Origin: Acidobacteriota bacterium
GTDB taxonomy: Bacteria; Acidobacteriota; Terriglobia; Terriglobales; Acidobacteriaceae
Assembly (NCBI GenBank): GCA_025359885.1
Contig: JANYDG010000066.1
Span: forward strand, 1 to 49,024
DNA: 49,024 nucleotides
Direction of reading: 5' to 3'
Below the pieces are notes generated by a model. The model made no database searches. It saw only the letters and a program-made list of their open reading frames with translations, and was not told where the DNA came from. Both the position numbers and the translations under genes were made by a program. Numbering within the stretch: position 1 is the first letter of the stretch; every line of letters begins with the position of its first letter. Below are positions 25,328 to 45,290 of this stretch, piece by piece.

Positions 25328-28300
25328 ATGTACTTATGCCATTCGAAGCTGATGTCGCGTTTTCAGCCATACTTCCTTTTTCTGGTAACGCTTGCGGTAC
25401 TTTGGTACTCGCCCTTGAGTTATTCTCAGACAACGCCGACCAACATTCAGATTACTGGGAATGTGTTGCAGACTCCCGTTCATAGGCTGGGAGTGAATCT
25501 TGGCGATCAGACGTATTGGGATTCGGGACAGATGATGAAGAATCTGGTGTTTCAGAATCCTGGATTTGAAGGGTTGAAGTACCGGAGCATCATGAAGTGT
25601 GCGATTGTGACGGCGAATACGTGCACGGATGATAACAATTTCAGTCCGCAGCCCACGGGATTCTGGACTGGTGCCAGTTACGAGATTATTTCTGGAGCTT
25701 CGACGGGTGTAACTGGGACGGTGGTTTCGAGCACGAAGAATCCGAGCAGCTGCTCGGGCTGCGGTCAGATCGTGCAGTTTGACCAGACTACCAACATGGC
25801 TTCGGGGGATTACTTTGCGGTGACCAATTACTTTCCTGGTGCGGGGGATACGGGTTGGTGGGACAACGTTTCCGGCGGCGGGACGATAACGACGGAGACG
25901 ACCGATTTGTCACCGAACACGCCGGGCAAGCAGGCGTTGCTCTTGAGCGCCTCTGGTGCGGGCACGGCAGCATCGGTGGCGCAGTATTTTGATTCCTTCA
26001 AGGGGCTGAGCTTTATTCAGCTGAATGGCACGTTTCAACTGACGTTTCGGGCCAAGGGTGTGGGTGGCAACAACCAGTTGAGTATCAATGTGCAGCGGTT
26101 GATGGGGACCAATTCGCCGTATCTGAGCCAGACGCTTACGTTGACGAATTCGTGGCAGGACTACGTGCTGAATTTCTCTGCCAATGAGACGGGTTCAGCT
26201 GTAGGTACGGTTCAGTTGGTGTTCGGAGCAGCGGGGTCGAGTGTAGAGCTGGACGATGTAGCGATGCAGCAGACCGACTCCGATCCAGCCAACATCACGG
26301 CATTTCGCGACGATGTAGTGAATACGTTGAAGCAGTTGAATCCGGGGACGATCCGCATGATGGCAGCGGGTGCTGCTTTGGGATCGGATATTCCGAATCA
26401 GCTTGCGCCGACGTTTGGACGCTACCGCGAGGGTTTCAATACGGATGCGACGATTACGTACAACATTCCATATGGGATTCATGAATTCTTGCAGTTGTGC
26501 GCGGCGGTAGGGTCTGATCCGTGGATTACGATACCGACGGCGACAACGCCTGAAGAGATGACAATCCTGATGGAGTATCTGACGGGCAATGGGTCAGACA
26601 GCTATTCGGCGTCAAGGATTGCCCGGGGGCAGAGCCAGCCGTGGACCTCAGTCTTCAACAAAATTCACCTTGAATTGGGGAATGAGACGTGGAACGGGGT
26701 GTTCAAGGGCGAGTCGATGGCTTATCCGGGGTATCCGCAGTGGGCGAACCTGGTGTTTGGCGCGGCGCGTCAGAACGGTGGATTTCAGGCGAGCAAGTTT
26801 GACCTGGTGCTGGATGGTTGGGGTGACGTGCCAGCGTACAACCAGCAGACGTTGAGCTACAGCACGCAGCATGACTCGATTGATATCGCGCCCTATTTGC
26901 TCTACAGCGCGAACAATGAGCCGCAATCGACGATGTTTGGCGCGATGTTTGCGGAGCCTGAAATGTGGGAGTCACCGGGAGGGCAGGTGTATTCGACGGT
27001 GCAGTCTGCTGCGGCTGCTGCGCGCCCAGCGAAGGTGAGTGTGTATGAGACCAATCTGGGCACGATGATTGGCAACATTACCCAGGCGCAGTTGGACCAG
27101 TTGACTCCATCGGTGGGAGCTGGAATCGCAACGACGGTGCATATGCTGGAGATGATGCGGATCGGCGTGCAGTATCAAAACGCCTTTGCCTTGCAGCAAT
27201 ACCAGTACAAGCGCGGTGACCAGAGCCTGGTGCGGCTATGGGGCATTGTGATTGATATGGGTACCACGAACCGTCGCCGACCTCAATTCCAAACGCAGGC
27301 GCTGGCAAATTCCGTTATCGGCGGAAATATGTTGCAGACGGTGCAGGGTGGGGCAAATCCGACATGGAATCAGCCACTGAGCAGCGATGGTGTGCAGCTG
27401 AACGGAGCTCATTATCTGCAATCGTTTGCGTTTTTGAATGGGACCTCAGCATCGACGGTTCTGTTTAATCTGAGCCAGACAACGGCATTGCCGGTGATTT
27501 TCTCAGGTGAAAATGCACCGAATGGAACGGTGCAGATGATGCAGATCACCTCGGCGAACATCACGGACAACAACGAGACGTCGAGTGTTGTGCAGCCGAC
27601 TTCGAAGACTTTGAGTGGATTCAACCCGGCTTCCGGGCTTTCGCTGCCGCCGTTTTCGATGACGGTACTTAGCTGGACTGCAACGGCGACACAATCTCCT
27701 GTGTTCTCGGTACCGGCTGGAACGTTCAGTGCGTCGCAGACGGTTTCTCTTTCAGACACGACAGCGGGTGCGACGATCTATTACACGACGGACGGCAGCA
27801 CGCCGACGACAGCATCGGCGGAATACAGCACTCCGATTCTGGTGGGTAAGACGACGACGTTGAAGGCAATCGCGACGGCACCGAATTTCACCTTAAGTCC
27901 GGTAACTTCAGCGTTGTACACGATTCAGCCGGTAGCACCGATTCCGGTACTTTCTGTTCCGACAGGCACATATACTTCGGGCCAGGCGGTTGCGATCAGC
28001 GATTCGCTTGCGGGCATCAACATTTACTACACGCTGGATGGTTCATTGCCGACGAACGCTTCAACTGTGTATTCGGGTCCGATTGCGGTCAACACGAACG
28101 AGACGCTTACGGCGATGGCTGGTGGTGCGAACTATACCAACAGCGGTACCGTATCGGCGACGTATACGATTGCGCCACCGACTCCGGCACCTGTCATCGG
28201 AGATCCTGCGGGCGTGTACACGGTTGCTCAGATTATCCAGATCACGGATGCGATGCCGAGTGCGGTGATGTATTACACGACGAACGGGTCGAAGCCGACG

Positions 28301-30031
28301 ACATCTTCAGCGCAATTCAACGGATCGGTGACGATCAGCACAACGGCCCTGTTGCAGGTGATCGCCGTCGCTCCTGGCTACTCCAGCAGTGCGGTTTCCT
28401 CGGCACTTTACACGATTTCACCGCGGGCTGCGATGCCTGTCCTGAGCGTGGTGGGCGGTGTGTACAACGCGACGCAGACGGTGGCAATCTCGGATGCAAC
28501 GCCGGGGACCACGATTTACTACACGATCAATGGAGGAACGCCAACGACGTCCTCTGCGGTCTACACGGGTCCTTTGACGGTGAGTTCTTCAGAGTACCTG
28601 CAGGCGAATGCGATTGCGTCAGGGTTGACGGTGAGCTTTACGGCATCGGCGAACTACGCATTGACGGTAGGCACGCCGGTACTGAGCGTGGCTGGCGGAA
28701 GCTACAGTGGCGCGCAGACGGTAGCGGTGAGCGGAGTGACTCCGGGCGCTTACTACTTCTACACGACGAATGGGACGACACCGACGACCGGATCGAATCC
28801 TTACGTCGGACCCTTCACTGTCAGTACTTCAGAGAAGGTTCTGGTGATGGGAAACAAGCCTGGTTACGTTAACAGCGCCATCACTTCGGCAAGCTATGTG
28901 ATTGGAACTGCTGCGGCCAACCCGGTGTTTTCTGTAGCGGCGGGCGCATATATCGGCTCGGTTTCGGTATCGATCAGTGATGCCACTGCGGGTGCGACGA
29001 TCTACTACACGGTCAACGGCAGTACGCCGACGACGGCTTCGAGTGTTTATTCTGGTGCGATCAGCGTTTCGGCATCGGCGACACTGAAGGCGATGGCGGT
29101 AGCGAGCGGACTGGGCAACAGTTCTGTAACTACGGCAGCGTACACGATCATTCTGCCGACTGCGACGCCGACGTTTTCGCTGACGGCTGGAGGCTATACG
29201 GGTAGCCAGACGGTGGCGATAGCCGATGCGACGGCCGGAGCAACGGTGTACTACACGGTCAACGGAACGGTGCCGACTACAGCTTCATCGGTGTATTCGG
29301 GACCGATTACGGTGGCTGCGACGGAAACGGTGGAGGCGCTTGCAGTTGCAACTGGATATGCTCCGAGTGCGGTTGCATCCGCTTCCTACACAATTACTTT
29401 GCCGACCACATCTGTATCGCTGGGGAGCGGCTTTGCTCCCAAGCAGCTTGCGTTGAATGGCTCAACAGCAGTTGTAGGCAATGTGCTGCAATTGACCAAT
29501 GGAGGAGTTGGACAGGCAGGAACCGCGTGGTACCCGAACAAGCTGAACGTCAGCAGTTTCACGACGGACTTTGACTTCCAGCTTCCTACCTCGAAGGCGG
29601 ACGGCTTCACGTTTACGATTCAGGGAGGGTCAAACGGGATCTATGCTCTGGGTGGCAATGGAGGCGGACTGGGCTACCAATTCATTACCAAGAGCGTTAC
29701 TGTGGCCTTTAACCTGTATCAGTCGGGGGTAACCAACGCGGAGACAGTCGGTGTCTACACTGGTGGGGCAAGCCCTAACGGTAACGCTGTGAATCTGATT
29801 GGAACGGGAATTGATCTGCACAACGGGAATGTATTTCACACGCACCTGGCGTACAGCGGTACGACCCTGGTGATGACGTTGACGGACAAGACGACCGGTG
29901 CTGCGACGACCCAGAGTTTTGCTGTGAACATTGGAACGAGCGTGGGGAGTACGGCTTATGTAGGCTTTACCGGGAGTACGGGAGGCTTTACGGCAATTCA
30001 AAATATTCTGAATTGGACGTATGCGAACTGA
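25328..30031 (+). CDS. Large exported multidomain protein: CBM-like domain, GH-A-like glycosidase, seven chitobiase-C-terminal-like repeats, legume-lectin-like domain
   Basis: A 1567-aa secreted protein. A signal peptide (to about residue 35, ending near SYSQTT) comes first. A conserved segment RLGVNLGDQTYWDSGQ with cysteine pairs (KCAIVTANTC, CSGCGQ) follows. Residues ~175-315 look like a CBM4/9 beta-sandwich (LTFRAKGVGG ... SWQDYVLNFSA ... VELDDVAM). The barrel (~320-680) has HLELGNETWN with Glu453 as likely acid/base and SVYETNLGT with Glu574 as likely nucleophile. Seven ~81-residue repeats (790-1357) with YYTTDGSTPTTAS-type cores resemble the chitobiase C-terminal Ig-like domain. Residues ~1362-1567 resemble an L-type lectin (FTTDFDFQL ... 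DGFTFTIQG). AGGAG precedes ATG 25328. It probably binds and cleaves or remodels a surface glycan (inference). Confidence 0.85.
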   Translation: MYLCHSKLMSRFQPYFLFLVTLAVLWYSPLSYSQTTPTNIQITGNVLQTPVHRLGVNLGDQTYWDSGQMMKNLVFQNPGFEGLKYRSIMKCAIVTANTCTDDNNFSPQPTGFWTGASYEIISGASTGVTGTVVSSTKNPSSCSGCGQIVQFDQTTNMASGDYFAVTNYFPGAGDTGWWDNVSGGGTITTETTDLSPNTPGKQALLLSASGAGTAASVAQYFDSFKGLSFIQLNGTFQLTFRAKGVGGNNQLSINVQRLMGTNSPYLSQTLTLTNSWQDYVLNFSANETGSAVGTVQLVFGAAGSSVELDDVAMQQTDSDPANITAFRDDVVNTLKQLNPGTIRMMAAGAALGSDIPNQLAPTFGRYREGFNTDATITYNIPYGIHEFLQLCAAVGSDPWITIPTATTPEEMTILMEYLTGNGSDSYSASRIARGQSQPWTSVFNKIHLELGNETWNGVFKGESMAYPGYPQWANLVFGAARQNGGFQASKFDLVLDGWGDVPAYNQQTLSYSTQHDSIDIAPYLLYSANNEPQSTMFGAMFAEPEMWESPGGQVYSTVQSAAAAARPAKVSVYETNLGTMIGNITQAQLDQLTPSVGAGIATTVHMLEMMRIGVQYQNAFALQQYQYKRGDQSLVRLWGIVIDMGTTNRRRPQFQTQALANSVIGGNMLQTVQGGANPTWNQPLSSDGVQLNGAHYLQSFAFLNGTSASTVLFNLSQTTALPVIFSGENAPNGTVQMMQITSANITDNNETSSVVQPTSKTLSGFNPASGLSLPPFSMTVLSWTATATQSPVFSVPAGTFSASQTVSLSDTTAGATIYYTTDGSTPTTASAEYSTPILVGKTTTLKAIATAPNFTLSPVTSALYTIQPVAPIPVLSVPTGTYTSGQAVAISDSLAGINIYYTLDGSLPTNASTVYSGPIAVNTNETLTAMAGGANYTNSGTVSATYTIAPPTPAPVIGDPAGVYTVAQIIQITDAMPSAVMYYTTNGSKPTTSSAQFNGSVTISTTALLQVIAVAPGYSSSAVSSALYTISPRAAMPVLSVVGGVYNATQTVAISDATPGTTIYYTINGGTPTTSSAVYTGPLTVSSSEYLQANAIASGLTVSFTASANYALTVGTPVLSVAGGSYSGAQTVAVSGVTPGAYYFYTTNGTTPTTGSNPYVGPFTVSTSEKVLVMGNKPGYVNSAITSASYVIGTAAANPVFSVAAGAYIGSVSVSISDATAGATIYYTVNGSTPTTASSVYSGAISVSASATLKAMAVASGLGNSSVTTAAYTIILPTATPTFSLTAGGYTGSQTVAIADATAGATVYYTVNGTVPTTASSVYSGPITVAATETVEALAVATGYAPSAVASASYTITLPTTSVSLGSGFAPKQLALNGSTAVVGNVLQLTNGGVGQAGTAWYPNKLNVSSFTTDFDFQLPTSKADGFTFTIQGGSNGIYALGGNGGGLGYQFITKSVTVAFNLYQSGVTNAETVGVYTGGASPNGNAVNLIGTGIDLHNGNVFHTHLAYSGTTLVMTLTDKTTGAATTQSFAVNIGTSVGSTAYVGFTGSTGGFTAIQNILNWTYAN
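27695..29398 (+). repeat. Seven in-frame ~81-codon repeats (chitobiase C-terminal-like domains)
   Basis: Each unit starts with a PVFSVPAGTF-like strand, continues through QTVSLSD and a YYTTDGSTPTTAS-like core, then YSGPI, TLKAIA and closes with a SALYTI-like strand. Units 3 to 5 are the most divergent (IGDPAGVY, SVVGGVY, SVAGGSY). Repeated coding DNA of this type can expand or contract by recombination. The paralogue at 41298 has four such units. Confidence 0.85.
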
Positions 30032-30060
30032 CCGCCTGGTGATGCGCCGAAGTGAATAGC

Positions 30061-30111
30061 AGCAAATGAGGAGCGATAAGCAATCGCTCCTCATTTGCTT
30101 TGTCAATTTTT
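30061..30111 (+). terminator. Intrinsic terminator
   Basis: A perfect 17-bp stem, AGCAAATGAGGAGCGAT against ATCGCTCCTCATTTGCT, with loop AAGCA (30078-30082), followed by TTGTCAATTTTT. It lies 30 bases after the large glycosidase-lectin gene. Confidence 0.88.
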
Positions 30112-30161
30112 ACGGGGAACGGGATTGAAGCGGTGATGCCTGATAGAGTGAGTTTCCAGTG

Positions 30162-30929
30162 ATGATGAGACGGGATTCCATTCATGTGTGGCGGGTAGGG
30201 CTTGAGGGAACTGACGGCGTTTCTCCGGGGCAGTTTGCGGCTCGGTGGGACATACTTTCTCTCGAGGAGCGGGAGAAGGCTGAGGGTTTCAAGGCAAGCG
30301 AGCACCGGTCTGACTATGTGACTGCGCATGCGGCTTTACGCCTGGTACTGGGGCGCTATCTTGGAGTTGCCGCGGAGAGGGTCGATTTCCGTTCAAGGGG
30401 GGAGGTTGGGGGCGAGTGGATGAAGCCAGCTTTGCAGGCTGGCTCAAATGCGAGTGACCTTCGGTTTAATTTGAGCCATACGCAGGGGGCCGCGCTGATT
30501 AGTGTTGCTGTGGGAAGAGAAGTCGGAGCGGATATTGAGTGGCAACGGCCGCTGGAGGATCTGGAAGATCTGGGGCGGAGCGTGATGTCAGAGGGAGAAC
30601 TGGCGCAGTGGCTGCGGCTCGGCAATGAAGAAAGGCTGAGGGCGTTTTACCACCTCTGGACGCGGAAAGAATCGTACTTGAAGGCGATTGGGTTGGGTTT
30701 GTACCGGAGTTTGCAGGAGGTCTCAGTGCCGGTTTCGGTGAGTACTCTGAACGGGGTTGCAGGCGACGCACGAAAGGTGCGCGATATAGCTGTCAATTCA
30801 TCCTGGATGGTGACGGATATTCCCGTGGAAGGGCCATATTCCGCTTCGGTTTGCTTTGAGGGTGCAGAGGTGCCTGAGTTAAGGGTGGCAGATCTGGATT
30901 GGAGCGAATTGGATGGCGGGGAAGCCTGA
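30162..30929 (+). CDS. 4'-phosphopantetheinyl transferase (Sfp/HetI type)
   Basis: A 255-aa cytoplasmic enzyme that moves the phosphopantetheine arm of coenzyme A onto carrier proteins. Motifs: LRFNLSHTQGAALISV, VGADIEW (metal-binding Asp/Glu) and FYHLWTRKESYLKAIGLGL (catalytic WxxKES/YLKA). Three successive start codons (GTG 30159, ATG 30162, ATG 30165) precede the same frame; none has a strong ribosome site. No polyketide, peptide synthetase or carrier-protein gene is in this window, so its target is elsewhere or is a carrier not recognised here. It sits between two polysaccharide genes. Confidence 0.9.
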   Translation: MMRRDSIHVWRVGLEGTDGVSPGQFAARWDILSLEEREKAEGFKASEHRSDYVTAHAALRLVLGRYLGVAAERVDFRSRGEVGGEWMKPALQAGSNASDLRFNLSHTQGAALISVAVGREVGADIEWQRPLEDLEDLGRSVMSEGELAQWLRLGNEERLRAFYHLWTRKESYLKAIGLGLYRSLQEVSVPVSVSTLNGVAGDARKVRDIAVNSSWMVTDIPVEGPYSASVCFEGAEVPELRVADLDWSELDGGEA

Positions 30930-31140
30930 TTTTCCGGGGCAAGTTGCCTCACCTGCGGGTGGTTAAAGGTGGCTTCAGATTGTGCTAAGGTGAGGGGAGA
31001 CGGGCTGGTAATCGAGAGAATGACGGTTGATGCCTGGTTATCTTGAAAAGTTGGGGTGTGGGATGACTCCCCACCAAGCTGTCCAGTGATTGGGCCGCAA
31101 AATGACAACCAAGGCAGCCTGGCTGCACTGAGGACAGACA

Positions 31141-32508
31141 TTGGAATATCTCTTCATCCTGCCATTTCTGATCTCGGTGTACTACATACAGCGCAAGCAG
31201 ATTGAGAAGGCATTTCTCAATGTGTATTTGCCATGCACGTTCCTGGTTCCGTACTACTATCACTTTCGCTTGCCGCATTTGCCGACGCTCTCAGCGGGCA
31301 CAGCGGCGCTGATTCCGATTGCGATTGCGCTCCTGATCCAGCCGAAGCACAAGTGGAAGTTTTGCCGGATGGACCTCTGGGTCTTGATTTTTGTGGTGAG
31401 TATTGCGCTGAGTGAACTGCTGCGCGAGTATTCACCGAAGGACGGGATGATTTTGTGGCTGACGAACTTTCTGGAGATGTTTTTTGGATATGTTGTCGGG
31501 CGGCAGATCATCGAGCCGGAGCTTCGGCTGGAAACGGTGAAGCGGATCGTATTCCTGTTTATTGCGCAGACGCCGCTGGCGTTTTTTGAGTTTCGTTTTG
31601 GGCAGAATCTTTGGTTGAACTTTGGGCGAAGCCTTTTTGGGCTGTACGATGTGGGTTGGTTTGTGCAGTTGCGTGGGGGGACGGCGCGCATCGCGACCTG
31701 CTTTGGCGATACGATTCTGGCGGGAATGCTGTACCTGATTGCGATGGCGCTGAACTACTACCTGGTGCAGATCTACAAGAAGGACAAGACGCGGCTGGGG
31801 CGGCGCATGAACTGGCTGCAGAAATATCGGCTGCCTTTTTTCCTGTTGCCGATGTTTGTGTTTATGACGAATTCGCGGATGCCGATGGCGTGCACGGTGG
31901 TTTGTTTTCTGATGATGCAGATACCGCGGTTCAAGAATATGCGGACGGGCATGACGCTGGTGCTGCTGGTTCTGGGGATTGGCGGCGGGATTGGATTTGT
32001 GGCTTTTCAGAAATATACAAATGTTTCAGAGGATCAGATTACGGACGAGGCGCAGAGCAGTGCGATCTATCGGAAGCAGTTGCTGGCGGCGTACGACCCG
32101 GTGCTTGAAGCGGGTGGATTGCTGGGATGGGGGCAATTGAGCCATCCGGTGATGCCGGGGCTTGGTTCAGTGGATAACAACTACATGCTGATTCAGTTGT
32201 CTCAGGGAACGCTGGGCAAATACACGTTTCTACTGATCGCGGCGGAATCGATTTTTGGACTGATTATGTGCGCGGTGCGGTTTAAATCGAAGGAGAGCCT
32301 GTTTCTTGTTTTCAGCCTGATGGGAGCGTTGGTGGCGACATTTCTGGCCCTGACGACGGTGTATCTGGGTGAGCAGGTGGCGCAGGTGTTGTTTCTGCTG
32401 CTGGGGTGGGCGCAGTCGCTTGAGGATACGCGTGTTTTGGGGGTTGGAGCGCGGTCTGAGAGCAGTCTGCCGGATGCAAAGTTCAACTTCAAGCGGATTA
32501 TCGCTTAA
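31141..32508 (+). CDS. Second polytopic O-antigen polymerase/ligase-like membrane protein
   Basis: A 455-aa inner-membrane protein with about 10-12 hydrophobic helices. It contains LRGGTARIATCFGDTILAGMLYLIAMAL, similar in position to the conserved region of Wzy/WaaL-type proteins. A loop follows around residues 285-345 with SAIYRKQLLAAYDPVLEAGGLLGWGQ. The start is TTG 31141, supported by GAGGA at 31130-31134 six bases upstream; no in-frame ATG gives the first helix intact. It shares the G-W-G-Q loop element with the other Wzy-like protein (21425-22858) but otherwise looks only distantly related. The two may serve polymerisation and ligation, or two polymers. Confidence 0.75.
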   Translation: MEYLFILPFLISVYYIQRKQIEKAFLNVYLPCTFLVPYYYHFRLPHLPTLSAGTAALIPIAIALLIQPKHKWKFCRMDLWVLIFVVSIALSELLREYSPKDGMILWLTNFLEMFFGYVVGRQIIEPELRLETVKRIVFLFIAQTPLAFFEFRFGQNLWLNFGRSLFGLYDVGWFVQLRGGTARIATCFGDTILAGMLYLIAMALNYYLVQIYKKDKTRLGRRMNWLQKYRLPFFLLPMFVFMTNSRMPMACTVVCFLMMQIPRFKNMRTGMTLVLLVLGIGGGIGFVAFQKYTNVSEDQITDEAQSSAIYRKQLLAAYDPVLEAGGLLGWGQLSHPVMPGLGSVDNNYMLIQLSQGTLGKYTFLLIAAESIFGLIMCAVRFKSKESLFLVFSLMGALVATFLALTTVYLGEQVAQVLFLLLGWAQSLEDTRVLGVGARSESSLPDAKFNFKRIIA

Positions 32509-32523
32509 AAAGGCTGAATTGAA

Positions 32524-36331: not shown

Positions 36332-36515
36332 CGTTCCGCTTATTCTCCCTGGTCTCTGAAGCTGCAGGCTTTATTTTCTCACGGAGGTGATTTGCTGACC
36401 TGATGGGCGGATGGCGTAGCACTCTGCTGAGACGGGAGTGGAAGAGAATGATGCTGCGGAGCGGGTGCGGATCATGGATTCGTCACGATTGAGTCATGAT
36501 TGGGTCCGGATTCAG

Positions 36516-37835
36516 TTATGGGTGGAGAACTTCAACGTTCAAGCCTTCTGTGAGTTCTGCAGGAGTGGGCTGGGCTGTGCAGGCTGATTCCGATGCAATG
36601 TCTGCGGGTATTTGTTGACCTGCGATGGGGGGTTCAATCTTCAGGTTCAGTACGCGTTCGAATACGGAGCGCATGGAGCGTCCCCAGGCATTCCAGTTGA
36701 GTCGCTGCTCATACTCCCGCCGACAGGATTGAACCAGGTTCATGTAGCGGGCAGGATCGGCGATGACGCGGATGATGGTATCGGCGTAAGCTCGGCCGCC
36801 CTCTTCGAATGGAACGAGGTAGCCGTTGAGGCCGTCGGAGATGGAGCCGCGGAGGCCGCCGGTGTCTGCGGCGATGATGGGCAGTCCAAAAGCGCTGGCT
36901 TCGGAGATGACGATGGGGGTAGCGTCAGCTCGGGTGGGCAACAGCATGAAGTGGGCATCGAGGAAGAGTTGAGTGATTTGCTTGCGCTGCTCTGGGTCAT
37001 TTTTGCTGAGGAAGGGAATGACGCGCATTTGAGGATGCTCAACGCCGGCGGGTGGTTTGCAGCCGAGGATGGTCAGATGGGCATCGACGCCGGATTCGAG
37101 GAGACTGGTCAGGCACTCAAGGGCGATGTTGCCGCCTTTGCGTATCCAATCAACACCGACGAGGAGGAGTTCAACCCGGTGATTGAGGGATCTGTTGACG
37201 GCTGCTTCCCGGGTTGGGGGCTCATTGAGGTTGGCACCGAAGCTGACTTTGAGGGTGGTTTCGCGGGAGGCACCGTAGTGGTTGCATGCGCTGTCAACGG
37301 CCCACTCGGAGGGGTAGACTGCGGCGGCCGCGCGATGGATGGCAGCGGCCTCGATGCGCTCCCCTTCGGCTTGCCCAAAGGCACAGATTGAAGAGTAGTC
37401 GGGGTAGTATTCGATGATTTGCGCCCAGGTGAGATCGGAGTAGTAGACGATGGGCAGGTTGGTGCGAAGATGGGCTATCTCGACTGAGCCAACGGGAGCA
37501 AAGAGGATGTCACAGGGAGAATCTTGAATCCGCTTTTCGAAGAAGCGTCCGAGGCGGTTGGAGAGGAAGCGATTGTGGTCTGTGGCAAAAGACTGGCCAG
37601 TGAGCCGAAGCCAGACGCGATTGAATCGAGCCACGTTGTCTACGATGAAGCGCGTCCCTGGTGAATTATCGGGGCCGAGGTAAACCACTTCGCCCACATG
37701 GGCGTTGAGTGCCTGAGACATGAAGTAGAAGATGCCGGACCAGGAGCGGATATTGCGTGCATCAAAGCGATGCACAAATCCAATCCGTAGCCTTTGTTCC
37801 GGTCTTGATGACTGGGCATCCGACATTACTTCCAT
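36516..37835 (-). CDS. Group 1 (GT4-like) glycosyltransferase
   Basis: A 439-aa GT-B enzyme. It begins LRIGFVHRFDARNIRSWSG, has LPIVYYSDLTWAQ in the middle, the donor-domain strand VELLLVGVDWIRKGG, and PTRADATPIVISEASAFGLPIIAADTGG, where ATPIVISEA occupies the EX7E position with the first Glu replaced (A/D-T-P). NGYLVPFEEG follows as usual. It starts at ATG 37835 (ATG 37826 possible) and is on the same strand as the GT4 at 35051, 184 bases upstream of it. Role: sugar addition to the polysaccharide repeat unit; specificity unknown. Confidence 0.87.
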   Translation of the reverse strand: MEVMSDAQSSRPEQRLRIGFVHRFDARNIRSWSGIFYFMSQALNAHVGEVVYLGPDNSPGTRFIVDNVARFNRVWLRLTGQSFATDHNRFLSNRLGRFFEKRIQDSPCDILFAPVGSVEIAHLRTNLPIVYYSDLTWAQIIEYYPDYSSICAFGQAEGERIEAAAIHRAAAAVYPSEWAVDSACNHYGASRETTLKVSFGANLNEPPTREAAVNRSLNHRVELLLVGVDWIRKGGNIALECLTSLLESGVDAHLTILGCKPPAGVEHPQMRVIPFLSKNDPEQRKQITQLFLDAHFMLLPTRADATPIVISEASAFGLPIIAADTGGLRGSISDGLNGYLVPFEEGGRAYADTIIRVIADPARYMNLVQSCRREYEQRLNWNAWGRSMRSVFERVLNLKIEPPIAGQQIPADIASESACTAQPTPAELTEGLNVEVLHP

Positions 37836-38202
37836 GCCTCTTTTCCAATGGGAAGAACTCTTGTTCTTTCATGTTCAATCTGCTGCGTTGTGGAGGTGTT
37901 GGACTGCGGAATCGACGGATTTTTCACGGTTATCTTGAGGTACAAAATATCACGAGTGGAGGTCTGTTCCTCATGCTCGATACGTCAAGTGATACGAAAG
38001 TTGCAGGTGAAGTTCGCTGCGGAAACAAGTGTGCCTTGCAACAGAAACTTTAGTATATCCGTCTGACGGGCATTTTAGAAAAAGGAAAACCTGCGTGGAA
38101 TTCGTTCACCTGGTGGGATGCAATGCAATCGAGTGTGACATGGCGACAATCGAGTGAATCATGATTCCGGATCACTGAACGGAAGGGCGTTGCGGAGGAG
38201 GG
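37836..38202. other. Intergenic region upstream of the GT4-like gene
   Basis: About 365 bases, AT-richer than the surroundings, without a convincing gene. On the minus strand a TATACT hexamer about 220 bases before the ATG could be a -10 element, but no good -35 is at the right distance. Confidence 0.4.
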
Positions 38203-40578
38203 CTAGAGATTTTTTATGAAGAAGTCAGTCATGCTCGTGAACAGGACGAGACGGGCCGCGGAGTCATCAATTGAATGTCCGCGGTCTGGTAGAAGCAGGA
38301 CGTCGGCGGACTTTCCGTTGTCCAGGAGATGATCCTGCAGGGTGAGCATGTTCTCGATGTGAACAAATTCATCTTCAGTTCCCTGGGCGAGCATCAGCTT
38401 TCCCTGGAAGAAGCGAGCATTGTCGAGCGCGGTGGAGGCTTGCCACCCATCTGCAAAGGCGACCGGGTCATCGAGATAGCGCTCAGCAAAGATAGCATCG
38501 TAGAAGTGCCAGTCGACGATGGGAGCGCCGGCAAAGCCTGCGCGAAACGCGACCGGCCGATCAAGCAAAGCATGGATTACGAGGAAGCCTCCATATCCCC
38601 AGCCACATGCACCGAGTCTTGCCCGGTCAACGTAGGGAAGGGTAGTGAGATAAGCGACAGCGTCGCGAAGGTCTGTCATCTCCTGTGCGCCGAGTCGCAG
38701 ATGCACCGGCTCTTCAAAGTAGTGACCTCGGGCTGCTGTGCCCTGGTTATCCAAGGCAAAGATGACGAAGCCTTTCTGCGCCATCGACTGCATCCAGAGA
38801 GCGGTGGCTCCGCCCCAGGTATTGCGGACTAACTGCTCGCCTGGGCCTCCGGCGAGGTAGACAATCACGGGATACTTTCGCGTGGGATCGAATGCCGGGG
38901 GTTTGATGAGGAGCGCGCGGACATCTGTGCCCATGTGCATCCTGAGGTTGAGGAATTCGACGGGTTGGAGAGCGGGCGTCATTTCGCTGTTTGTCTGAGG
39001 CAACACCGAAGCGGGCGCTGCTGGCTGGGTGAGAGCGATGACTCCAACCTGTGGTCGGGATAACTGTGAGGAAGAAATGTCTGCCGCAGAGGATGCGTCA
39101 GGGGAGACGCGCGTCTCATGCGTTCCAGGCTGCTGGGAGATGCGGGTGAGTGCGGTGCCATCGAGTCGAACGGAATAGAGTTGACGCTCGAGTGGACTGG
39201 CCTCTGTGGCAGTGAAATAGACGCGGCTCGTGGCTTCGTCGATGGCGAGTAGCTGTGTCACTTCCCAGGCACCGCTGGTGAGCTGAGTGATCTGTTTGCC
39301 GTGAATGTCGTAAAGGAACAGGTGGCGGAAGTTATTGCGTTCGCTGGTCCAGAGGAAGCGCTTGCAGTCTTTGAGGAATATCAGATCGTCGCTGAGGTTG
39401 ACCCAGTATTTGTCGTTTTCGGTGAGGATGATCTGTGACTGGCCTGTGCGAGCATCGGCGATAAACAGGTCAAGCTTTTGCTGGTGCCGATTGAGCCGCT
39501 GAATTGTGAGATGCTGCCCATCAGGCAGCCAGGAAATACGAGGGAAGTAGTAACCCCTGGTCAAGCCAAGATTGATGGCCAGGGGCGGGGTATCAACTGG
39601 GGCGGTTATTCGCTTGACCAAAACGCGGACCAGGGGCAATTCGCCGCCTGGTTTGGGATAGGCAATTTGGCGCGTGGTTCCGTCGCTGGCGCGCAGGGTA
39701 TATTTCGCAACTGCGCGGTCATCAATTTCAAGCCAGGCGATGCTGGATGAGTCGGGCGACCAGGCGTGAGCGGTTGGGAGATGGAGTTCGTTTTTGTAGG
39801 GCCAGTCGAGTTCCCCTTCCGAGACATCCGGACGCGGAGATTTTGAAAAACGCAGCGGTGGACTGGATGCCTTGCCGGATTTGAGAGGAAGCAACCAGAG
39901 GCTATGGTTGCGCACAAAGCTGACTGCTTTGCCGTTGGGTGCGAGGGAGACGCTGGTCAGGGCCTGATCGGCTGAGGGCTGATCGGTCAGGGCATGATCG
40001 GCTGAGTTTTGAGCGCCTGAGGCCTCTTTGCCGGAGACAAGAAGAGAATGTTCGCCGGAGGCGAGGTCAAGCCATGCCACCGAGGTGGTGCCGATGAGCA
40101 GCAGCGCGGTGTGGTCAGGGGACCAGGCAAAGTCCTGCAGGAAATAGGGGTTGCCCCTGGCATCGTCATCGGTGGCCTGATGCGGACTTTGGTCTGATCC
40201 GCGCAGACAACTGGTCACTTTTTCAATGGAAACCAGGATTCTGGACTCGGCCTGAGGAGCAGGATGCGAATGGGCTTCGGAAATTGAATCAAGGGTCCGG
40301 ATCTCGTTCTGAGGCGATTTGTCGCGTGCTTTCAGACCGGGCGTTACTTGATGCAGCCAGGCAAAGCGCGCGCCATCAGCACTCCAATGCAGAGTCGTGG
40401 TTCGGGCATGGGAGTCAATCGGTGTATCGGGCTCAGAACTGACCACGTCAAGGGTAAGAGCTGACTGATTTTTTTGGGGCAGCGTTTTGTCCTGGCCTGC
40501 AAGAGTCGGCTGAGGGGATGCGATCAGGCAGGCAGAGATGGTCGTTGCGATGAGCAGCAGCGAATTGAGTTTGGACAT
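38203..40578 (-). CDS. Exported DPP4-like (S9B) protein with the catalytic serine replaced by glycine
   Basis: A 791-aa protein with a signal peptide (MSKLNSLLLIATTISACLIA), a propeller-type N-terminal domain and a C-terminal alpha/beta-hydrolase domain of the prolyl oligopeptidase family. The nucleophile elbow, GWSYGG in active dipeptidyl peptidase IV enzymes, reads GWGYGG with Gly661 (codon GGA). The other triad residues appear kept: Asp736 in GTEDEFVH and His768 in DRGHSID. The DPP4 substrate-clamp motif DWVYEEE reads DWPYKNE (262-264), so that site is altered too. This combination suggests a non-peptidase, comparable to mammalian DPP10, where Ser is also Gly. ATG 40578 is chosen over upstream starts because GAGGA lies 7 bases before it and the signal peptide then begins at residue 1. 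Confidence 0.87.
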   Translation of the reverse strand: MSKLNSLLLIATTISACLIASPQPTLAGQDKTLPQKNQSALTLDVVSSEPDTPIDSHARTTTLHWSADGARFAWLHQVTPGLKARDKSPQNEIRTLDSISEAHSHPAPQAESRILVSIEKVTSCLRGSDQSPHQATDDDARGNPYFLQDFAWSPDHTALLLIGTTSVAWLDLASGEHSLLVSGKEASGAQNSADHALTDQPSADQALTSVSLAPNGKAVSFVRNHSLWLLPLKSGKASSPPLRFSKSPRPDVSEGELDWPYKNELHLPTAHAWSPDSSSIAWLEIDDRAVAKYTLRASDGTTRQIAYPKPGGELPLVRVLVKRITAPVDTPPLAINLGLTRGYYFPRISWLPDGQHLTIQRLNRHQQKLDLFIADARTGQSQIILTENDKYWVNLSDDLIFLKDCKRFLWTSERNNFRHLFLYDIHGKQITQLTSGAWEVTQLLAIDEATSRVYFTATEASPLERQLYSVRLDGTALTRISQQPGTHETRVSPDASSAADISSSQLSRPQVGVIALTQPAAPASVLPQTNSEMTPALQPVEFLNLRMHMGTDVRALLIKPPAFDPTRKYPVIVYLAGGPGEQLVRNTWGGATALWMQSMAQKGFVIFALDNQGTAARGHYFEEPVHLRLGAQEMTDLRDAVAYLTTLPYVDRARLGACGWGYGGFLVIHALLDRPVAFRAGFAGAPIVDWHFYDAIFAERYLDDPVAFADGWQASTALDNARFFQGKLMLAQGTEDEFVHIENMLTLQDHLLDNGKSADVLLLPDRGHSIDDSAARLVLFTSMTDFFIKNL

Positions 40579-41297
40579 GCGGCGGTCCTCAATTGTTTCC
40601 TTGAAGCACGGGAGCAGTGTTTGGCGTATCGCGCGGCCGCAGTTCAATGGAGGAGACGCTACAGGATAAATGCTTGGGAAGGAAGCCTACAAACCTCGGC
40701 GGCCGAGCCGGCAAGGCCGCGGGACGGAATGCCGGGGTGGGAGTGAGTCTGCCTGCCGGTTGCCCAAAGTGGGCTTTGTGGCCGGGGGTGTGTGAGGTGG
40801 GCGGCTGCATGGTAACCAAACTGAGAGTGACTAAAGTTGCGAACGCGGGAGCAACCGGCCTGTCCGTTGTCGATTATGGTGAAGCTGGAAGCGGTTTGGA
40901 GGGAAATGGCTCGATGCGACACGAAGTTTACCATAAAAAAATTACTTTAGTACTTTATTTTCAATGAATTAAATTCTACTCATTTTCCACATGAAGCCGA
41001 TAAGGACAAGTATGAGTGCGTGGTAGAGGCATCCAAATGTCTGATAAGTCTCTATTTATCAGACATATTGTTCGCTTGATGGGCGGCTGTTGCGAGCACC
41101 GACCTGGAAATCAATGCCACTTTTGTTGAAAAAGGTAACCAAAGTAGTAAAAACTAAGGTAATCTAAATTTTATTACCACCCTGGCATGGTCCGGAGTTT
41201 TCCGGGCCTATCAATTGACAAGCATCGCGGCTGAGCAGAGCCGGCAGAGGAGTCGTCGAGACATCCCTGCCTCAAATTCATACAGGAGTTTTATCTC
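40579..41297. other. Divergent intergenic region between the DPP4-like gene and the second glycosidase-lectin gene
   Basis: About 720 bases, markedly AT-rich from 40930 to 41180, without a credible gene. It contains the 11-bp hairpin at 41037-41066 and the TACAGGAG ribosome site at about 41281-41288 of the gene at 41298. The AT-rich part probably holds the promoter(s). Confidence 0.5.
41037..41066. promoter_or_regulatory. Perfect 11-bp inverted repeat, candidate operator
   Basis: ATGTCTGATAA (41037-41047) and TTATCAGACAT (41056-41066) flank GTCTCTAT. No T-run follows, and both neighbouring genes run away from it, so a terminator is unlikely. An operator for the divergent genes is more plausible. 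Confidence 0.45.
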
Positions 41298-44200
41298 ATG
41301 AAATTTGGAACGCACGGAATCGGAACTCATCGAGCGAGACTTGTTCTTCTACCCACGCTTGTGATGGTTGGTTGCCTTGTGGGGCAAAGCCAGACGCCGA
41401 CCAACGTTCAAATCACGAGCGCGGTGCAGCAGCCTTTGGTGCATCGTCTGGGCGTGAACCTGGGAGATCAGGGGTACTGGGATTCTGGTCAGATGTTGAA
41501 GAATCTGGTGTTTCAGAATCCTGGCTTTGAGGGACTGAAGTATCGGAGCATTTTGAAGTGTGCTTTGGTGACGGCGAATACGTGCACGGATGATAACCAG
41601 TACAGTTCACAGCCGACCGGCTTCTGGAGTGGAGGCAGCTACGAGATCATGTCCGGGGCCTCGAAGGGGCTGACCGGAAAGGTGGTTTCGAGCACGAAGA
41701 ATCCGAAAGCCTGCTCGGGGTGTGGCCAGATCATCCAGTTTGATCAGAATGTGAATGCAGGGGTGGGAGACTATTTTGTCATGACCAACGCCTTTCCTGG
41801 TGGAGGGGATACGGGCTGGTGGGACACGCTTAGCGGCGGGGCTGTGATTTCAACGGAGATGAACGATCTTTCGCCGAATACACCTGGCAAGCAGGCACTT
41901 TTGATGAGTGCGACGGGGGCGGGCCAGGCGGCGAGGGTGACGCAGTACTTTGAATCTTTCAAGGGGCTGAGTTTCATTCAGTTGAACGGTAACTTCCAGG
42001 TGGCATTCAGGGCCAAGGGAGTCGGCGGTAAGAATCAGCTGAACGTCAGTGTTCAGCGGCTGATGGGAACGAATGCACCGTACCTGAACCAGACCTTGAC
42101 GTTGACAAACTCCTGGCAGGACTACACGTTGGACTTCAGTGCGAATGAGACGGGCTCGGCAGTGGGCACGGTGCAGTTGGTGTTTGGCGCAGCAGGTTCT
42201 TCGGTGGAGTTGGATGATGTATCGCTGCAACAGACTAATTCGAGCCCGTCCAATCCGACGGCGTTTCGCGATGATGTGGTGAATGCGCTGAAGCAGTTGA
42301 AGCCGGGTACGATTCGGATGATGGCTGCGGGGGCGGCCCTAGGGTCGGATATACCGAACCAGCTGGCACCGCCGTTTGCCCGTTACCGGGAAGGGTTTAA
42401 CAGTTCGGCGACGATCTCGTATGCGATTCCCTATGGCATTCATGAATTTCTTGAGCTTTGCGCAGTGGTGGGAGCGGACCCGTGGATAACCATCCCTACG
42501 GCAACGTCAGCTCAGGAGATGAAGGATTTCATGGAGTATCTGACGGGAAACGGTTCCGACAGCTACTCAGCATCTCGTATTGCGCGCGGTCAGAGCCAGC
42601 CCTGGACGTCTGTTTTCAACAAGATTCATATTGAGTTGGGCAACGAGACATGGAACGGTGTGTTCAAGGGTGAGTCGATGGCATACCCCGGCTACCCGCT
42701 CTGGGCCAATGACATTTTTGGAGCGGCGCGGCAGAGCAGTGGATACCAGGCGGGCAAGTTTGACCTGGTTCTGGATGGTTGGGCGGCTGTGCCGGGGTAC
42801 AACGCCGGGTTGTTGAGTTACAGCACGCAGCATGACTCGATCGATATTGCTCCGTATCTGCTGTACAGCGCGAACAATGAGGCTCAATCGACACTGTTTG
42901 GTGCGCTTTTCGCACAGCCGGAACTCTTCAATAATGCGACGGGAGAAGTGACTCGGACCCTGCAGGCTGCGGCACTTGCCAGCACTCCGACTACGGTGAA
43001 CGTGTATGAGACTAACCTGGGCACCATGATTGGGACGATCACGCAGCCGCAACTGGATGCGCTGGCTCCGTCGGTTGGAGCTGGAATGGCTCACACCGAA
43101 AATATGCTGCTGATGATGAAGAATGGCGTTCAGTACCAGAATGCATTTGCTCTGCAACAGTACATGTATCTCCGCGGCGACCAAAAGCTGGTGAAGATGT
43201 GGGGCATCGTGGTTGACATGGGTACGACAAATCGTCGCCGTCCCCAGTTCATGACCCAGGCACTGGCCAATAGTGTGATTGGCGGCAGCATGTTGCAGAC
43301 GGTGCATAGCGGCGCCAACCCGACCTGGGACCAGCCCTTGAGCAGTGACGATGTGCAACTGAAGGGTGCGCATTACCTGCAGTCATTTGCCTTCATCAAC
43401 CAGGGCAAGGTATCGACGATTCTCTTTAACCTGAACCAGACGTCGGCTTTGCCGGTGACATTGTCGGGGCCCAATGCACCGACAGGTTCGGTGCAGTTGA
43501 GCCAGATTGCCTCTGCCAACATCACCGACAACAATGAGACTGCGGATAAAGTGAAGCAGACGATCAAGACGCTGAGCGGCTTTGGCCCATCGACGACACT
43601 CATGCTGCCGCCGTTTTCGATGACCGTACTGACCGCGACGACGAGTGTGACGCAGCCTCCGAGCTTCTCTGTTGCGCCGGGAACCTACAATGCGACGCAG
43701 ACTGTAGTGCTCAGCGATGCAACGGCAGGATCAACGATCTATTACACGACCGATGGGAGCACGCCAACGACGGCATCGCCGGCGTATAACGGAGCCCTGA
43801 CTGTCAGCGAGAGCGAAACCGTACAGGCGATTGCAGTGGCTACTGGCTTCTCTCAAAGCGGAATCGCCAGTGCGACCTACGTTATTCAATTTCCTGCGGC
43901 TGCTGCGCCGACCATTCTGGTGCCATCGGGGCTATACGGAACGGCCCAGATGGTCAAGATTTCAGACGACACGACGGGCGCTACCATCCGTTACACAACG
44001 GACGGCAGCGTTCCAACAGAGACTTCGACTGCCTATACGGGCGCTGTGACGGTGAGCAAGAGCGAGACGCTCAAAGCAATTGCGGTGGCAAGTGGCTTCA
44101 CGCCGAGCGCTATGACGAGTGCGACCTACGTCATTGGTTATCCGACGTCGGCGACTCCGACGTTTTCAGTGGCGCCCGGTACCTACACATCAGCGCAGTC

Positions 44201-45290
44201 GGTGGTGATTTCGGAGCCCACGGCAACTGCAAAGGTCTACTATACGACGGACGGCAGCGTTCCGTCGACGGCTTCGCCGGTATACGCCGGGCCAATCATC
44301 GTAGGCAAGAACTCAACCCTCAAGGCAATTGGTGCTGGGAACAACCTCAACCCGAGTGCAGTTGTGACGGCGGTCTATACGATCATTCCGCCCGCAGCGA
44401 AACCCACACTCTCTGTACCTCCAGCCACCTATTCGACGACACAGACGGTCTCGATTACGGATTCAACGGCCGGAGCGGTCATTTACTACACGTTGAATGG
44501 CACTGTACCGACGACAAAATCAACGCAATACAGCGGGCCAATTGCAGTTGCGGCGACGGAAACGATCGAGGCGATTGCTGTGGCACCTAATTTCTCTCCG
44601 AGCGCGGTGACCGTTGGTACCTACACGATCACGACCGGTTCGACTGGTGGATCGAGTGGATTCAAGAAGGGGGAGATGGTTCTGGATGGTTCAGCCAAGC
44701 TGGTTGGCAGCATTCTGGAGTTGACGGATGGCGGCCATGGAGAAATTGCAGCCGCCTGGAATGCGAAGAAGGTTCTGACAGGTTCCTTCACGACAGACTT
44801 CACGTTCCAGCTTCCGAAGTCTGCGGCTGACGGGTTTACTTTCACCTTGCAGAATGCGTCGAAAGGACCCTATGCAACCGGCGGCAACGGAGACGCGCTG
44901 GGCTATGCTGGGATCGCGAACAGCGTTGCAATCAAGTTCGATCTGTATAACGGTGCAAAGCAAGCGGCAGTATCACAGACTGGTCTTTTGACCAACGGGG
45001 AAAACCCGCCGACGCAATCAATCAATATGGCTTCGTCGAACATCAATCTGCATAACGGTCACGTCTTTGAGGCTCACTTGACGTATGACGGAACGACGCT
45101 GGTTGAGACGGTGACGGATACGTCCACTGGAGCGGTATTCACCCACAGCTATGTTGTGAATCTCCCGGCAATTCTTGGCGGCAATAGTGCCTATGTGGGA
45201 TTCACGGCAAGCACGGGTGGTTATACGGCGATTCAAAACGTGCTGACCTGGTCGTATGCTGGCCAGGCAAATGCGATCAAGAAGAAGTAA
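41298..45290 (+). CDS. Second large exported protein: CBM-like domain, GH-A-like glycosidase, four chitobiase-C-terminal-like repeats, legume-lectin-like domain
   Basis: A 1330-aa paralogue of the protein at 25328 with the same domain order. A signal peptide (RLVLLPTLVMVGCLVGQSQ) is followed by RLGVNLGDQGYWDSGQ and the same cysteine pattern. A CBM4/9-like sandwich spans ~172-312. The barrel has HIELGNETWN (Glu450) and NVYETNLGT (Glu571). Four ~82-residue repeats lie at 787-1113, and the lectin-like domain at ~1118-1330 (FTTDFTFQL ... DGFTFTLQN). The first ~780 residues are strikingly similar to the larger paralogue and differ mainly by scattered substitutions. A 14-bp hairpin terminator follows. 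An extracellular glycan-binding hydrolase or transglycosidase is the likely role (inference). Confidence 0.85.
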   Translation: MKFGTHGIGTHRARLVLLPTLVMVGCLVGQSQTPTNVQITSAVQQPLVHRLGVNLGDQGYWDSGQMLKNLVFQNPGFEGLKYRSILKCALVTANTCTDDNQYSSQPTGFWSGGSYEIMSGASKGLTGKVVSSTKNPKACSGCGQIIQFDQNVNAGVGDYFVMTNAFPGGGDTGWWDTLSGGAVISTEMNDLSPNTPGKQALLMSATGAGQAARVTQYFESFKGLSFIQLNGNFQVAFRAKGVGGKNQLNVSVQRLMGTNAPYLNQTLTLTNSWQDYTLDFSANETGSAVGTVQLVFGAAGSSVELDDVSLQQTNSSPSNPTAFRDDVVNALKQLKPGTIRMMAAGAALGSDIPNQLAPPFARYREGFNSSATISYAIPYGIHEFLELCAVVGADPWITIPTATSAQEMKDFMEYLTGNGSDSYSASRIARGQSQPWTSVFNKIHIELGNETWNGVFKGESMAYPGYPLWANDIFGAARQSSGYQAGKFDLVLDGWAAVPGYNAGLLSYSTQHDSIDIAPYLLYSANNEAQSTLFGALFAQPELFNNATGEVTRTLQAAALASTPTTVNVYETNLGTMIGTITQPQLDALAPSVGAGMAHTENMLLMMKNGVQYQNAFALQQYMYLRGDQKLVKMWGIVVDMGTTNRRRPQFMTQALANSVIGGSMLQTVHSGANPTWDQPLSSDDVQLKGAHYLQSFAFINQGKVSTILFNLNQTSALPVTLSGPNAPTGSVQLSQIASANITDNNETADKVKQTIKTLSGFGPSTTLMLPPFSMTVLTATTSVTQPPSFSVAPGTYNATQTVVLSDATAGSTIYYTTDGSTPTTASPAYNGALTVSESETVQAIAVATGFSQSGIASATYVIQFPAAAAPTILVPSGLYGTAQMVKISDDTTGATIRYTTDGSVPTETSTAYTGAVTVSKSETLKAIAVASGFTPSAMTSATYVIGYPTSATPTFSVAPGTYTSAQSVVISEPTATAKVYYTTDGSVPSTASPVYAGPIIVGKNSTLKAIGAGNNLNPSAVVTAVYTIIPPAAKPTLSVPPATYSTTQTVSITDSTAGAVIYYTLNGTVPTTKSTQYSGPIAVAATETIEAIAVAPNFSPSAVTVGTYTITTGSTGGSSGFKKGEMVLDGSAKLVGSILELTDGGHGEIAAAWNAKKVLTGSFTTDFTFQLPKSAADGFTFTLQNASKGPYATGGNGDALGYAGIANSVAIKFDLYNGAKQAAVSQTGLLTNGENPPTQSINMASSNINLHNGHVFEAHLTYDGTTLVETVTDTSTGAVFTHSYVVNLPAILGGNSAYVGFTASTGGYTAIQNVLTWSYAGQANAIKKK
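43656..44636 (+). repeat. Four in-frame ~82-codon repeats (chitobiase C-terminal-like domains)
   Basis: Units begin PSFSVAPGTY, PTILVPSGLY, PTFSVAPGTY and PTLSVPPATY, each followed by a YYTTDGS.PT core and a closing TYVI/VYTI strand. Compared with the paralogue at 25328, three units are missing. The 237-residue size difference between the two proteins is explained by about that. Confidence 0.85.

Follow-up and report, generated by a model that had tools for sequence, protein, structure and literature searches.

Three GH51-related glycosidases on an acidobacterial contig, probably dedicated to the exopolysaccharide of their own locus

Acidobacteria are abundant in soil and many of them make slime, and the genes for their exopolysaccharides (EPS) are little understood. 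The stretch of DNA analysed here (positions 1 to 49,024 of contig JANYDG010000066.1, assembly GCA_025359885.1; all 49,024 nucleotides are hereafter called the window) comes from a member of the Acidobacteriaceae and carries three large glycosidase genes, GH_1, GH_2 and GH_3, among genes for polysaccharide synthesis. Why would a cell encode three related glycosidases at the place where it builds a polysaccharide? We consider it likely that all three genes encode retaining glycosidases, from a family related to glycoside hydrolase (GH) family 51 within clan GH-A, and that these enzymes are dedicated to the EPS of their own locus. The initial annotation of the window had described three paralogous enzymes of the secreted type, and all three open reading frames (ORFs) lie exactly where it placed them, on the same strands. 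Their parts are as follows, with lengths in amino acids (aa).

25328 to 30031, + strand: GH_1, 1567 aa, with a signal sequence, the core at aa 35-785, seven CHB_HEX_C_1/Fn3-associated repeats and a legume-type lectin
25430 to 27682, + strand: GH_1 core, with an N-terminal strand, a CBM4/9-like insertion, a (beta/alpha)8 barrel and a C-terminal beta-sandwich
26684 to 26686, + strand: codon of GH_1 E453, putative acid/base
27047 to 27049, + strand: codon of GH_1 E574, putative nucleophile
29315 to 30028, + strand: last repeat and legume-type lectin domain of GH_1 (Pfam Lectin_legB, E-value 1.9e-14)
32524 to 35061, - strand: GH_2, a short GH51-like glycosidase of 845 aa, possibly a lipoprotein (Cys38)
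32626 to 34908, - strand: GH_2 core, with E471 and E594
41298 to 45290, + strand: GH_3, 1330 aa, with a signal sequence, the core (E450 and E571), four CHB_HEX_C_1 repeats and a legume-type lectin
44550 to 45287, + strand: last repeat and legume-type lectin domain of GH_3 (AlphaFold and Foldseek)

Fold, family and active site of the core

A core of about 750 aa is common to all three proteins, GH_1 being 78% identical to GH_3 and 45% identical to GH_2 over about 750 columns, a similarity far above chance expectation. The glutamate pairs that had been proposed as catalytic are E453/E574, E471/E594 and E450/E571, spaced 121, 123 and 121 residues apart, with the first of each pair in the segment LGNETWN and the second in VYE[TV]NLG. 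The closing LPPFSMTVL strand (residues 773, 802 and 770 in GH_1, GH_2 and GH_3) and the paired cysteines (C91/C99, C108/C116 and C88/C96, in the same order) were likewise found. For the CBM4/9-like domain, also proposed earlier, support is weak, with PF02018 matched by 15 of 24 family members at a best E-value of 5e-7. An AGGAG motif lies 5' of the GH_1 ATG.

Searched as single sequences against Pfam, GH_1, GH_2 and GH_3 were assigned to no GH family, and the models ASD1_dom and Alpha-L-AF_C had no match in the three window proteins at E-values up to 1. Against PDB sequences, GH51 arabinofuranosidases were reached at 3.4e-7 by GH_2 alone (phmmer) and at 2e-16 by a profile of 24 members. Further, hhalign aligned the family with short-type GH51 proteins from related genomes at a probability of 99.4 in global mode, and with GH51 proteins carrying an inserted carbohydrate-binding module (CBM) at 99.7 in global mode (E-value 3.6e-26) and 99.2 in local mode (2.9e-19). 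The AlphaFold model of the GH_1 core, with a predicted local distance difference test score (pLDDT) of 88.9 and a predicted template modelling score (pTM) of 0.91, contains the TIM-type (beta/alpha)8 barrel on which the earlier call of a GH-A-like enzyme depended, together with a C-terminal beta-sandwich. When this model was compared with the PDB by Foldseek, the first 46 rows were all GH51 or arabinofuranosidase entries, headed by MgGH51 (6zps, 1.7e-26), and were followed by beta-glucuronidases and heparanase at about 3e-14. The catalytic glutamates of clan GH-A stand at barrel strands 4 and 7, and in the model E453 lies just past strand 4 and E574 on strand 7 (strands counted by us); from these positions and from homology, the two side chains would be expected to face each other. 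The GH-A-like assignment is thus borne out by the barrel, the placing of the glutamates and the top Foldseek rows, and the view that no CAZy family could be named, the motifs differing from those of GH51, has to be given up, with GH51 the nearest family by profile, by hhalign and by Foldseek.

For residue counts, 46 of 49 rows with more than 600 matched model positions were kept, representing 45 different genes (L011 and L103 are the same gene). The counterparts of E453 and E574 are invariant in all 46, and those of N452 and Y523 are conserved in 45 each. In the hhalign alignments, E453 pairs with the GNE motif of both short and CBM-inserted GH51 proteins and E574 with the glutamate of the GH51 'DE' motif (short type), and in one profile alignment Y523 pairs with a tyrosine of the GH51 HYY motif, which we take to be the O5-contacting tyrosine (Tyr402 in MgGH51). 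A further residue of MgGH51, Glu23, binds arabinose O3 (PMC7604909, in excerpt). Its equivalent in GH_1, aligned by eye across a strand that hhalign left unaligned, is G59, and this position holds G in 28, S in 11 and another residue in four of the 43 scorable rows (three of the 46 are gapped here), never E. The same position is E in 32/32 GH51 proteins from relatives (loci L105-L136); these ORFs were picked by profile match and not by motif, with profiles built from GH51 proteins picked earlier by pattern. The family thus keeps the catalytic pair and appears to lack one sugar-holding residue.

Whether the core belongs inside GH51 was judged by several measures. Among 24 family members, ASD1_dom was matched by seven (best E-value 0.0018) and Alpha-L-AF_C by one (0.0089), and the curated GH51 model of NCBIfam, ArfA, scored 22-26 bits against a cut-off of 625. 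In BLASTP, from which L040 was left out because its frame had been wrongly chosen, the 46 rows resembled 21 GH51 proteins of relatives only weakly, at 4.7e-12 at best and at or below 1e-5 for 37, whereas the short and CBM-inserted GH51 proteins of these relatives match each other at 1e-20 to 1e-37. In published work the split into GH51 subfamilies was drawn at 1e-58, with assignment at 1e-45 (PMC10461819, in excerpt). Because the O3 glutamate appears to be absent and the BLASTP similarity is weak against this published split, the core is called GH51-related, an outlier next to GH51 in clan GH-A, and not a member of GH51. A viral origin was considered and set aside. In BFVD there was one distant match of barrel length, M1HRI8 (2e-16, template modelling (TM) score 0.40-0.45), and the other listed rows have TM scores of at most 0.17 to the query.

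Pairing of the core with a Wzy_C-superfamily gene

In a scan of named genomes, 18 core loci were found, mostly in acidobacterial records (Granulicella, Edaphobacter and metagenome-assembled genomes, MAGs), with four outside the Acidobacteriota (L014, L017, L018 and L021, from records variously labelled Lentisphaerae, Verrucomicrobia, Opitutia and Proteobacteria). The core of L018 (RFSE01000050.1, labelled Proteobacteria) and some of its flanking genes are very like those of the Verrucomicrobia MAG L017, and because the two cores adjoin in the tree the Proteobacteria label may be wrong. In the Edaphobacter MAG locus L016 (9518-12276) the core is split over two frames, by frameshift, decay or sequencing error. 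The core was present in 13 of 61 relatives, after removal from the 14 listed of G059, which matched at 2e-11 over model positions 231-441 only and is GH51-like, and in 10 of 396 genomes drawn across the phylum (E-value 1e-40), where only the best two candidates per genome were scored for the core, and the best four for wzyB, so that misses are possible. The window's own genome, 94.8% complete, yielded no fourth copy in a core profile search, and the one other match was partial, to a GH51-type protein on contig C55.

Next to GH_2 lies the gene with which the core is regularly found:

31141 to 32508, + strand: wzyB, a membrane protein of the Wzy_C/O-antigen-ligase superfamily

PF04932 (Wzy_C) is matched by 12/12 aligned wzyB homologues (best E-value 3.5e-15), the window copy falling below the cut-off at 8e-5; we guess the protein to be a polymerase rather than a ligase. 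A homologue stands near most of the acidobacterial cores whose neighbourhoods were read. Among cultured relatives, Granulicella rosea DSM 18704 (L012) has the pair. With a wzyB profile (E-value 1e-10), exactly one copy was found in each of 17 core-positive genomes, and with G002, G004, G008 and G009 added the gene is present in all 21. The nearest core lies less than 5 kb away in 17 of these 21 genomes, at 96 to 3,318 bp (the distances for the four added genomes, 96 to 1,729 bp, were derived by hand from coordinates), and within 12 kb in 18. Presence follows the same pattern: among the 61 relatives, wzyB occurs in 13/13 core-positive genomes vs 2/48 core-negative ones (G012, 84% complete, and G034, 76% complete), and in the phylum draw in 10/10 vs 3/386. 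By gene content and this linkage, the cores are encoded in a locus with which their own cell makes EPS, and the suggestion of a dedicated polymer-processing system is strengthened by the short distances and the co-occurrence. We found no description of the family or of its pairing with wzyB in the open-access literature of PMC.

The three genomes of the phylum draw with wzyB and no core (G121, G213 and G290) carry EPS-like genes around it, judged by eye, and no core in the 20 kb read; for this reason the polymerase/ligase may predate the glycosidase, which may have been recruited later. A separate observation concerns G003, in which a 1749-aa protein (L154, contig C10, 3536-8782) encoded 1.4 kb from wzyB is similar to GH_1, at 50% in the best BLAST match, and is not matched by the core profile.

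Several points weigh against a role tied to this partnership. The wzyB profile was seeded from core-adjacent genes; among the non-seed core-positive genomes, wzyB was found in 14/14 and linked within 12 kb in 11/14, one of the linked genomes (G413) being close to a seed genome. Within the window's genus alone, co-occurrence reaches a Fisher p of 0.03, so the association partly reflects shared ancestry. The core and wzyB are 11 kb apart in G196 and on different contigs in G003, G022 and G010, second core copies in G304 and G001 lie away from wzyB, and three of the 21 core-positive genomes (G120, G196 and G228) have distant members only, which in two cases cover model positions 6-639 alone. To these are added the misses possible in the phylum draw and the alignment by eye at the O3 position; moreover, we know of no activity for any member of the core family. 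Finally, no wzyB homologue was found in the flanks, partly short, of L014, L017, L018 and L021. The core is therefore not bound to EPS loci everywhere, and the expectation that its members should sit beside polysaccharide genes holds for most acidobacterial ones; neither this check nor the one for a barrel refuted the initial reading.

The same four loci are what an ordinary catabolic enzyme would lead one to expect, an arabinofuranosidase or beta-glycanase acting on plant or fungal polysaccharides and placed in the locus by chance. The nearest family does act on plant polymers, and degradative enzymes that are secreted can carry lectins and chitobiase-type repeats. We nevertheless regard this explanation as unlikely, in view of the tight linkage to and co-occurrence with one Wzy_C-superfamily gene, the GH51-type genes that 24 of the 26 genomes searched carry at other sites, and the genes between the three cores, for which Pfam matches name no transporter or sugar-catabolic enzyme.

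The surrounding locus and its PKS-NRPS neighbours

The other genes of the window locus are these.

18844 to 21166, + strand: rmlA, rmlC and rmlD, dTDP-L-rhamnose supply
21425 to 22858, - strand: wzyA, a polytopic membrane protein, polymerase/ligase-like by eye only
23544 to 24578, - strand: GT2-family glycosyltransferase (Pfam)
30159 to 30929, + strand: 4'-phosphopantetheinyl transferase (Pfam ACPS 5.5e-16; NCBIfam HetI 9.8e-38, below its cut-off)
35051 to 36331, - strand: GT4-type glycosyltransferase
36516 to 37835, - strand: GT4-type glycosyltransferase
38203 to 40647, - strand: dipeptidyl peptidase IV-type S9 peptidase (Pfam)
45370 to 46482, - strand: glf, UDP-galactopyranose mutase for UDP-galactofuranose supply (Pfam GLF 1.5e-77), adjoining GH_3 and missed by the initial annotation
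46488 to 47723, - strand: glycosyltransferase-like protein (Pfam Glyco_trans_1_2 1.2e-4, below cut-off)
47867 to 48850, - strand: putative glycosyltransferase, by eye, with no family match

The product of wzyA had no Pfam or NCBIfam match; G011 has a homologue (L067), and so does G010, where it lies near the core (L064). Homologues of the putative glycosyltransferase at 47867 to 48850 lie near the core in G011, G009, G003, G001 and L025, and the dipeptidyl peptidase IV-type peptidase lies between glycosidases in G011 as well and near the core in G009, G003 and G001. The G011 locus is syntenic with the window, with three cores and glf too, and continues beyond the point where the window ends with an acyltransferase and genes for a polyketide synthase-nonribosomal peptide synthetase (PKS-NRPS), then with polysaccharide export, WecG-type transferase, GT2 and flippase-type genes. 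By its gene content, the locus fits a Wzx/Wzy-type EPS system. For two Granulicella strains, an EPS with mannose, glucose, galactose, xylose and rhamnose has been reported, and in the excerpt of that paper arabinose is not among the listed standards (PMC5259719).

The presence of glf opens another possibility, that of exo-acting furanosidases which attack galactofuranose in the polymer made by the strain itself. The sugars beta-D-galactofuranose and alpha-L-arabinofuranose are alike, the fold of the core is nearest to GH51, and glf adjoins GH_3 in the window and accompanies the three cores in G011. Set against this, the glutamate that holds the furanose O3 is not conserved, and among the 61 relatives glf occurs in only two of 13 core-positive genomes and also in two core-negative ones. 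Galactofuranose is excluded as the family-wide substrate by the count of two in 13, though it may apply to the window strain; taken as a whole, the explanation seems to us quite improbable.

In G011, the PKS-aminotransferase-NRPS gene (searched as two pieces) encodes acyl carrier protein, ketosynthase, acyltransferase, aminotransferase, condensation, adenylation and peptidyl carrier protein (PCP) domains and is followed by an NRPS with a thioesterase. The order of domains recalls, we presume, that of iturin and mycosubtilin synthetases. Loci read for this gene were L066, L096 (G011, contig C8), L098 (G003, contig C9) and L099 (G001, contig C12). Of 18 core-positive genomes searched, 11 had a match to the aminotransferase-to-PCP part, eight of them within 21 kb of a core (10.6-20.9 kb); the remaining core-positive genomes, G002, G004 and G008, had no match at 1e-200. 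In G009 this part lies on a contig other than that of the core, in G413 it is unlinked, and the genome of the window carries it on C73 and C84, contigs other than the window's. Among the 61 relatives, with the best seven candidates per genome scored, a near-full match was found in five of 13 core-positive vs 0/48 other genomes, and partial matches in three other relatives, extending over most of the stretch in G030. Within the window itself, the only gene of this kind is the phosphopantetheinyl transferase, which would suit a PKS-NRPS enzyme.

A wider, rather doubtful proposal would join these parts: the core would form a separate GH family, sister to GH51, that co-evolved with one Wzy-type polymerase/ligase and, in part of the Terriglobia, entered a joint locus with the PKS-aminotransferase-NRPS. 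The product of the latter, guessed from domain order to be an acylated beta-amino-acid lipopeptide, would be joined to the polysaccharide or anchor it, and the glycosidases, envelope-held and matrix-bound, would cut or transfer this glycan to place the conjugate.

Control of the locus by sigma-54 was rejected, with six pattern matches vs a chance expectation of 4.84 and none just upstream of the three glycosidase genes. Elsewhere in the window, a tandem array at 2383-2714 (a unit of 108 bases repeated 3.1 times with a 95% match) forms part of the ORF at 1581-2768 (- strand), and outside the EPS genes a GH39-type protein (8832-10427, - strand; Pfam 1.1e-6) is 95% identical in G011; GH39 is also the family of PslG.

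Proposed role and comparison with known systems

The reading that we favour, glycosidases dedicated to the EPS of their own locus, assigns different places to the short and the long proteins. The C-terminal tails of GH_1 and GH_3, with seven and four CHB_HEX_C_1 repeats and a lectin each, were missed by the initial annotation. Lectin_legB scored above its cut-off in both proteins, as expected of a legume-lectin beta-sandwich, and the AlphaFold model of the GH_3 lectin, of moderate confidence (pLDDT 74), had plant lectins as all 50 listed Foldseek matches in the PDB, the best at 2e-11. Repeats and lectin also occur on two proteins elsewhere in the genome (L006 on contig C28 and L008 on contig C50), in which a core search of the genome found no glycosidase core; since these bear the tail without the core, the tail seems to be a module for binding matrix or glycans that can be reused. 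In GH_2, Pfam found no repeat or lectin modules, and its signal sequence ends in Cys38 with serine at -3, which is atypical for a lipobox. Export signals, here and in relatives, were judged by eye from the sequence.

In a tree of 47 of the 49 rows, one clade holds GH_1 and GH_3, and GH_2 belongs to a different one. The short form is sister to the long form in G251/G094 (support 100/99) and likewise in G. aggregans/G413 (95/90), so that, on this one tree, the long partner would have arisen at least three times. The added parts are the C-terminal repeats and lectin in the window group, about 1,200 N-terminal residues with immunoglobulin-like matches in G251/G094 and about 1,030 C-terminal residues in G. 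aggregans/G413. Among the 23 short forms listed, 19 have a readable start, and 13 of these carry a cysteine near the end of the signal sequence (six do not, by eye), which suggests that those with the cysteine are lipoproteins. The pattern looks like a repeated split into a cell-held and a matrix-held enzyme.

We therefore propose that the short GH_2, probably a lipoprotein, would be held at the envelope and would trim or clear chains leaving the polymerase/ligase and export machinery, and that the long GH_1 and GH_3 would be exported into the matrix, where they would grip the finished polymer by repeats and lectins and remodel it. By cutting the EPS of their own cell, on its release or later, the enzymes would in this way set chain length or remodel the matrix; function is here deduced from gene order, and by analogy the enzymes may resemble PslG of Pseudomonas or WceF of Pantoea in function. 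The enzymes probably act on a linkage inside the heteropolysaccharide that the cell itself makes and, because the O3-holding residue of GH51 appears to be missing, probably not on alpha-L-arabinofuranose. Endo cleavage is our guess.

Enzymes placed in this way could also build and not trim, as transglycosidases that cut freshly made polymer and join it again to an acceptor on the cell surface or in the matrix. A retaining mechanism, which the GH51-like active site implies, permits transfer, and envelope-held and matrix-binding forms with a Wzy_C-superfamily partner would suit attachment. We know of no acceptor or transfer activity for the core family, and WceF, which comes from a locus of this sort and acts on the EPS made there, is a hydrolase (PMC7949094, in excerpt), so that transglycosylation appears very unlikely. 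Non-catalytic matrix proteins that keep an old fold for binding would agree with the lectin and repeat tails and the low overall similarity to active families, and are scarcely credible against two glutamates invariant in 46/46 rows and N452 and Y523 conserved in 45/46.

Cleavage of the cell's own EPS thus stays the preferred reading, and it offers a defined enzyme-polymerase pair that is open to experiment, in which glycosidase and Wzy_C-superfamily gene are both conserved and are found together. Should the reading prove true, the family would be a GH51-derived kind of self-EPS glycosidase and a source of enzymes for cutting and analysing acidobacterial EPS. The recurrent short and long modular forms suggest a division of labour, and with PKS-NRPS genes as neighbours one may ask if the cell also makes a peptide or lipid for this EPS.

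Among known systems, the next-best fold after GH51 is that of the beta-glucuronidase of Acidobacterium capsulatum (8oht, presumably GH79), clearly weaker at 5e-14 vs 1.7e-26. PslG of Pseudomonas aeruginosa has a clan GH-A barrel and is not known to carry a lectin or repeat tail. It is likewise a retaining glycosidase encoded inside its own EPS biosynthesis cluster, the Psl locus, and belongs to GH39, a family other than that of the core (PMC11912335, in excerpt). In structure, the closest likeness is to MgGH51 (6zps), which has the same order of parts, an N-terminal strand, a CBM4-like insertion, a (beta/alpha)8 barrel and a C-terminal sandwich (PMC7604909, in excerpt), and the Asn-Glu acid/base and Glu nucleophile of such GH51 enzymes recur in the core family, as a conserved Tyr seems to do. 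The differences from GH51 are an identity of 13-19% in the listed fold matches, window proteins that match no GH51 Pfam model, the apparent absence of the O3 glutamate, the siting of the genes in EPS loci, and the occurrence of short forms of envelope type and of forms with a lectin tail. WceF, from the stewartan locus of Pantoea stewartii, is also a self-EPS hydrolase encoded in a Wzy-dependent cluster, with a link to chain length, its loss giving longer chains, and lectin-like behaviour, although its beta-helix trimer is a fold unrelated to the core (PMC7949094, in excerpt). In the same phylum as the window, BcsZ (GH8) and its GH5_1 replacement are likewise glycosidases within a polysaccharide synthesis locus, that locus being one for cellulose synthase and the enzymes belonging to other GH families (PMC9693552, in excerpt).

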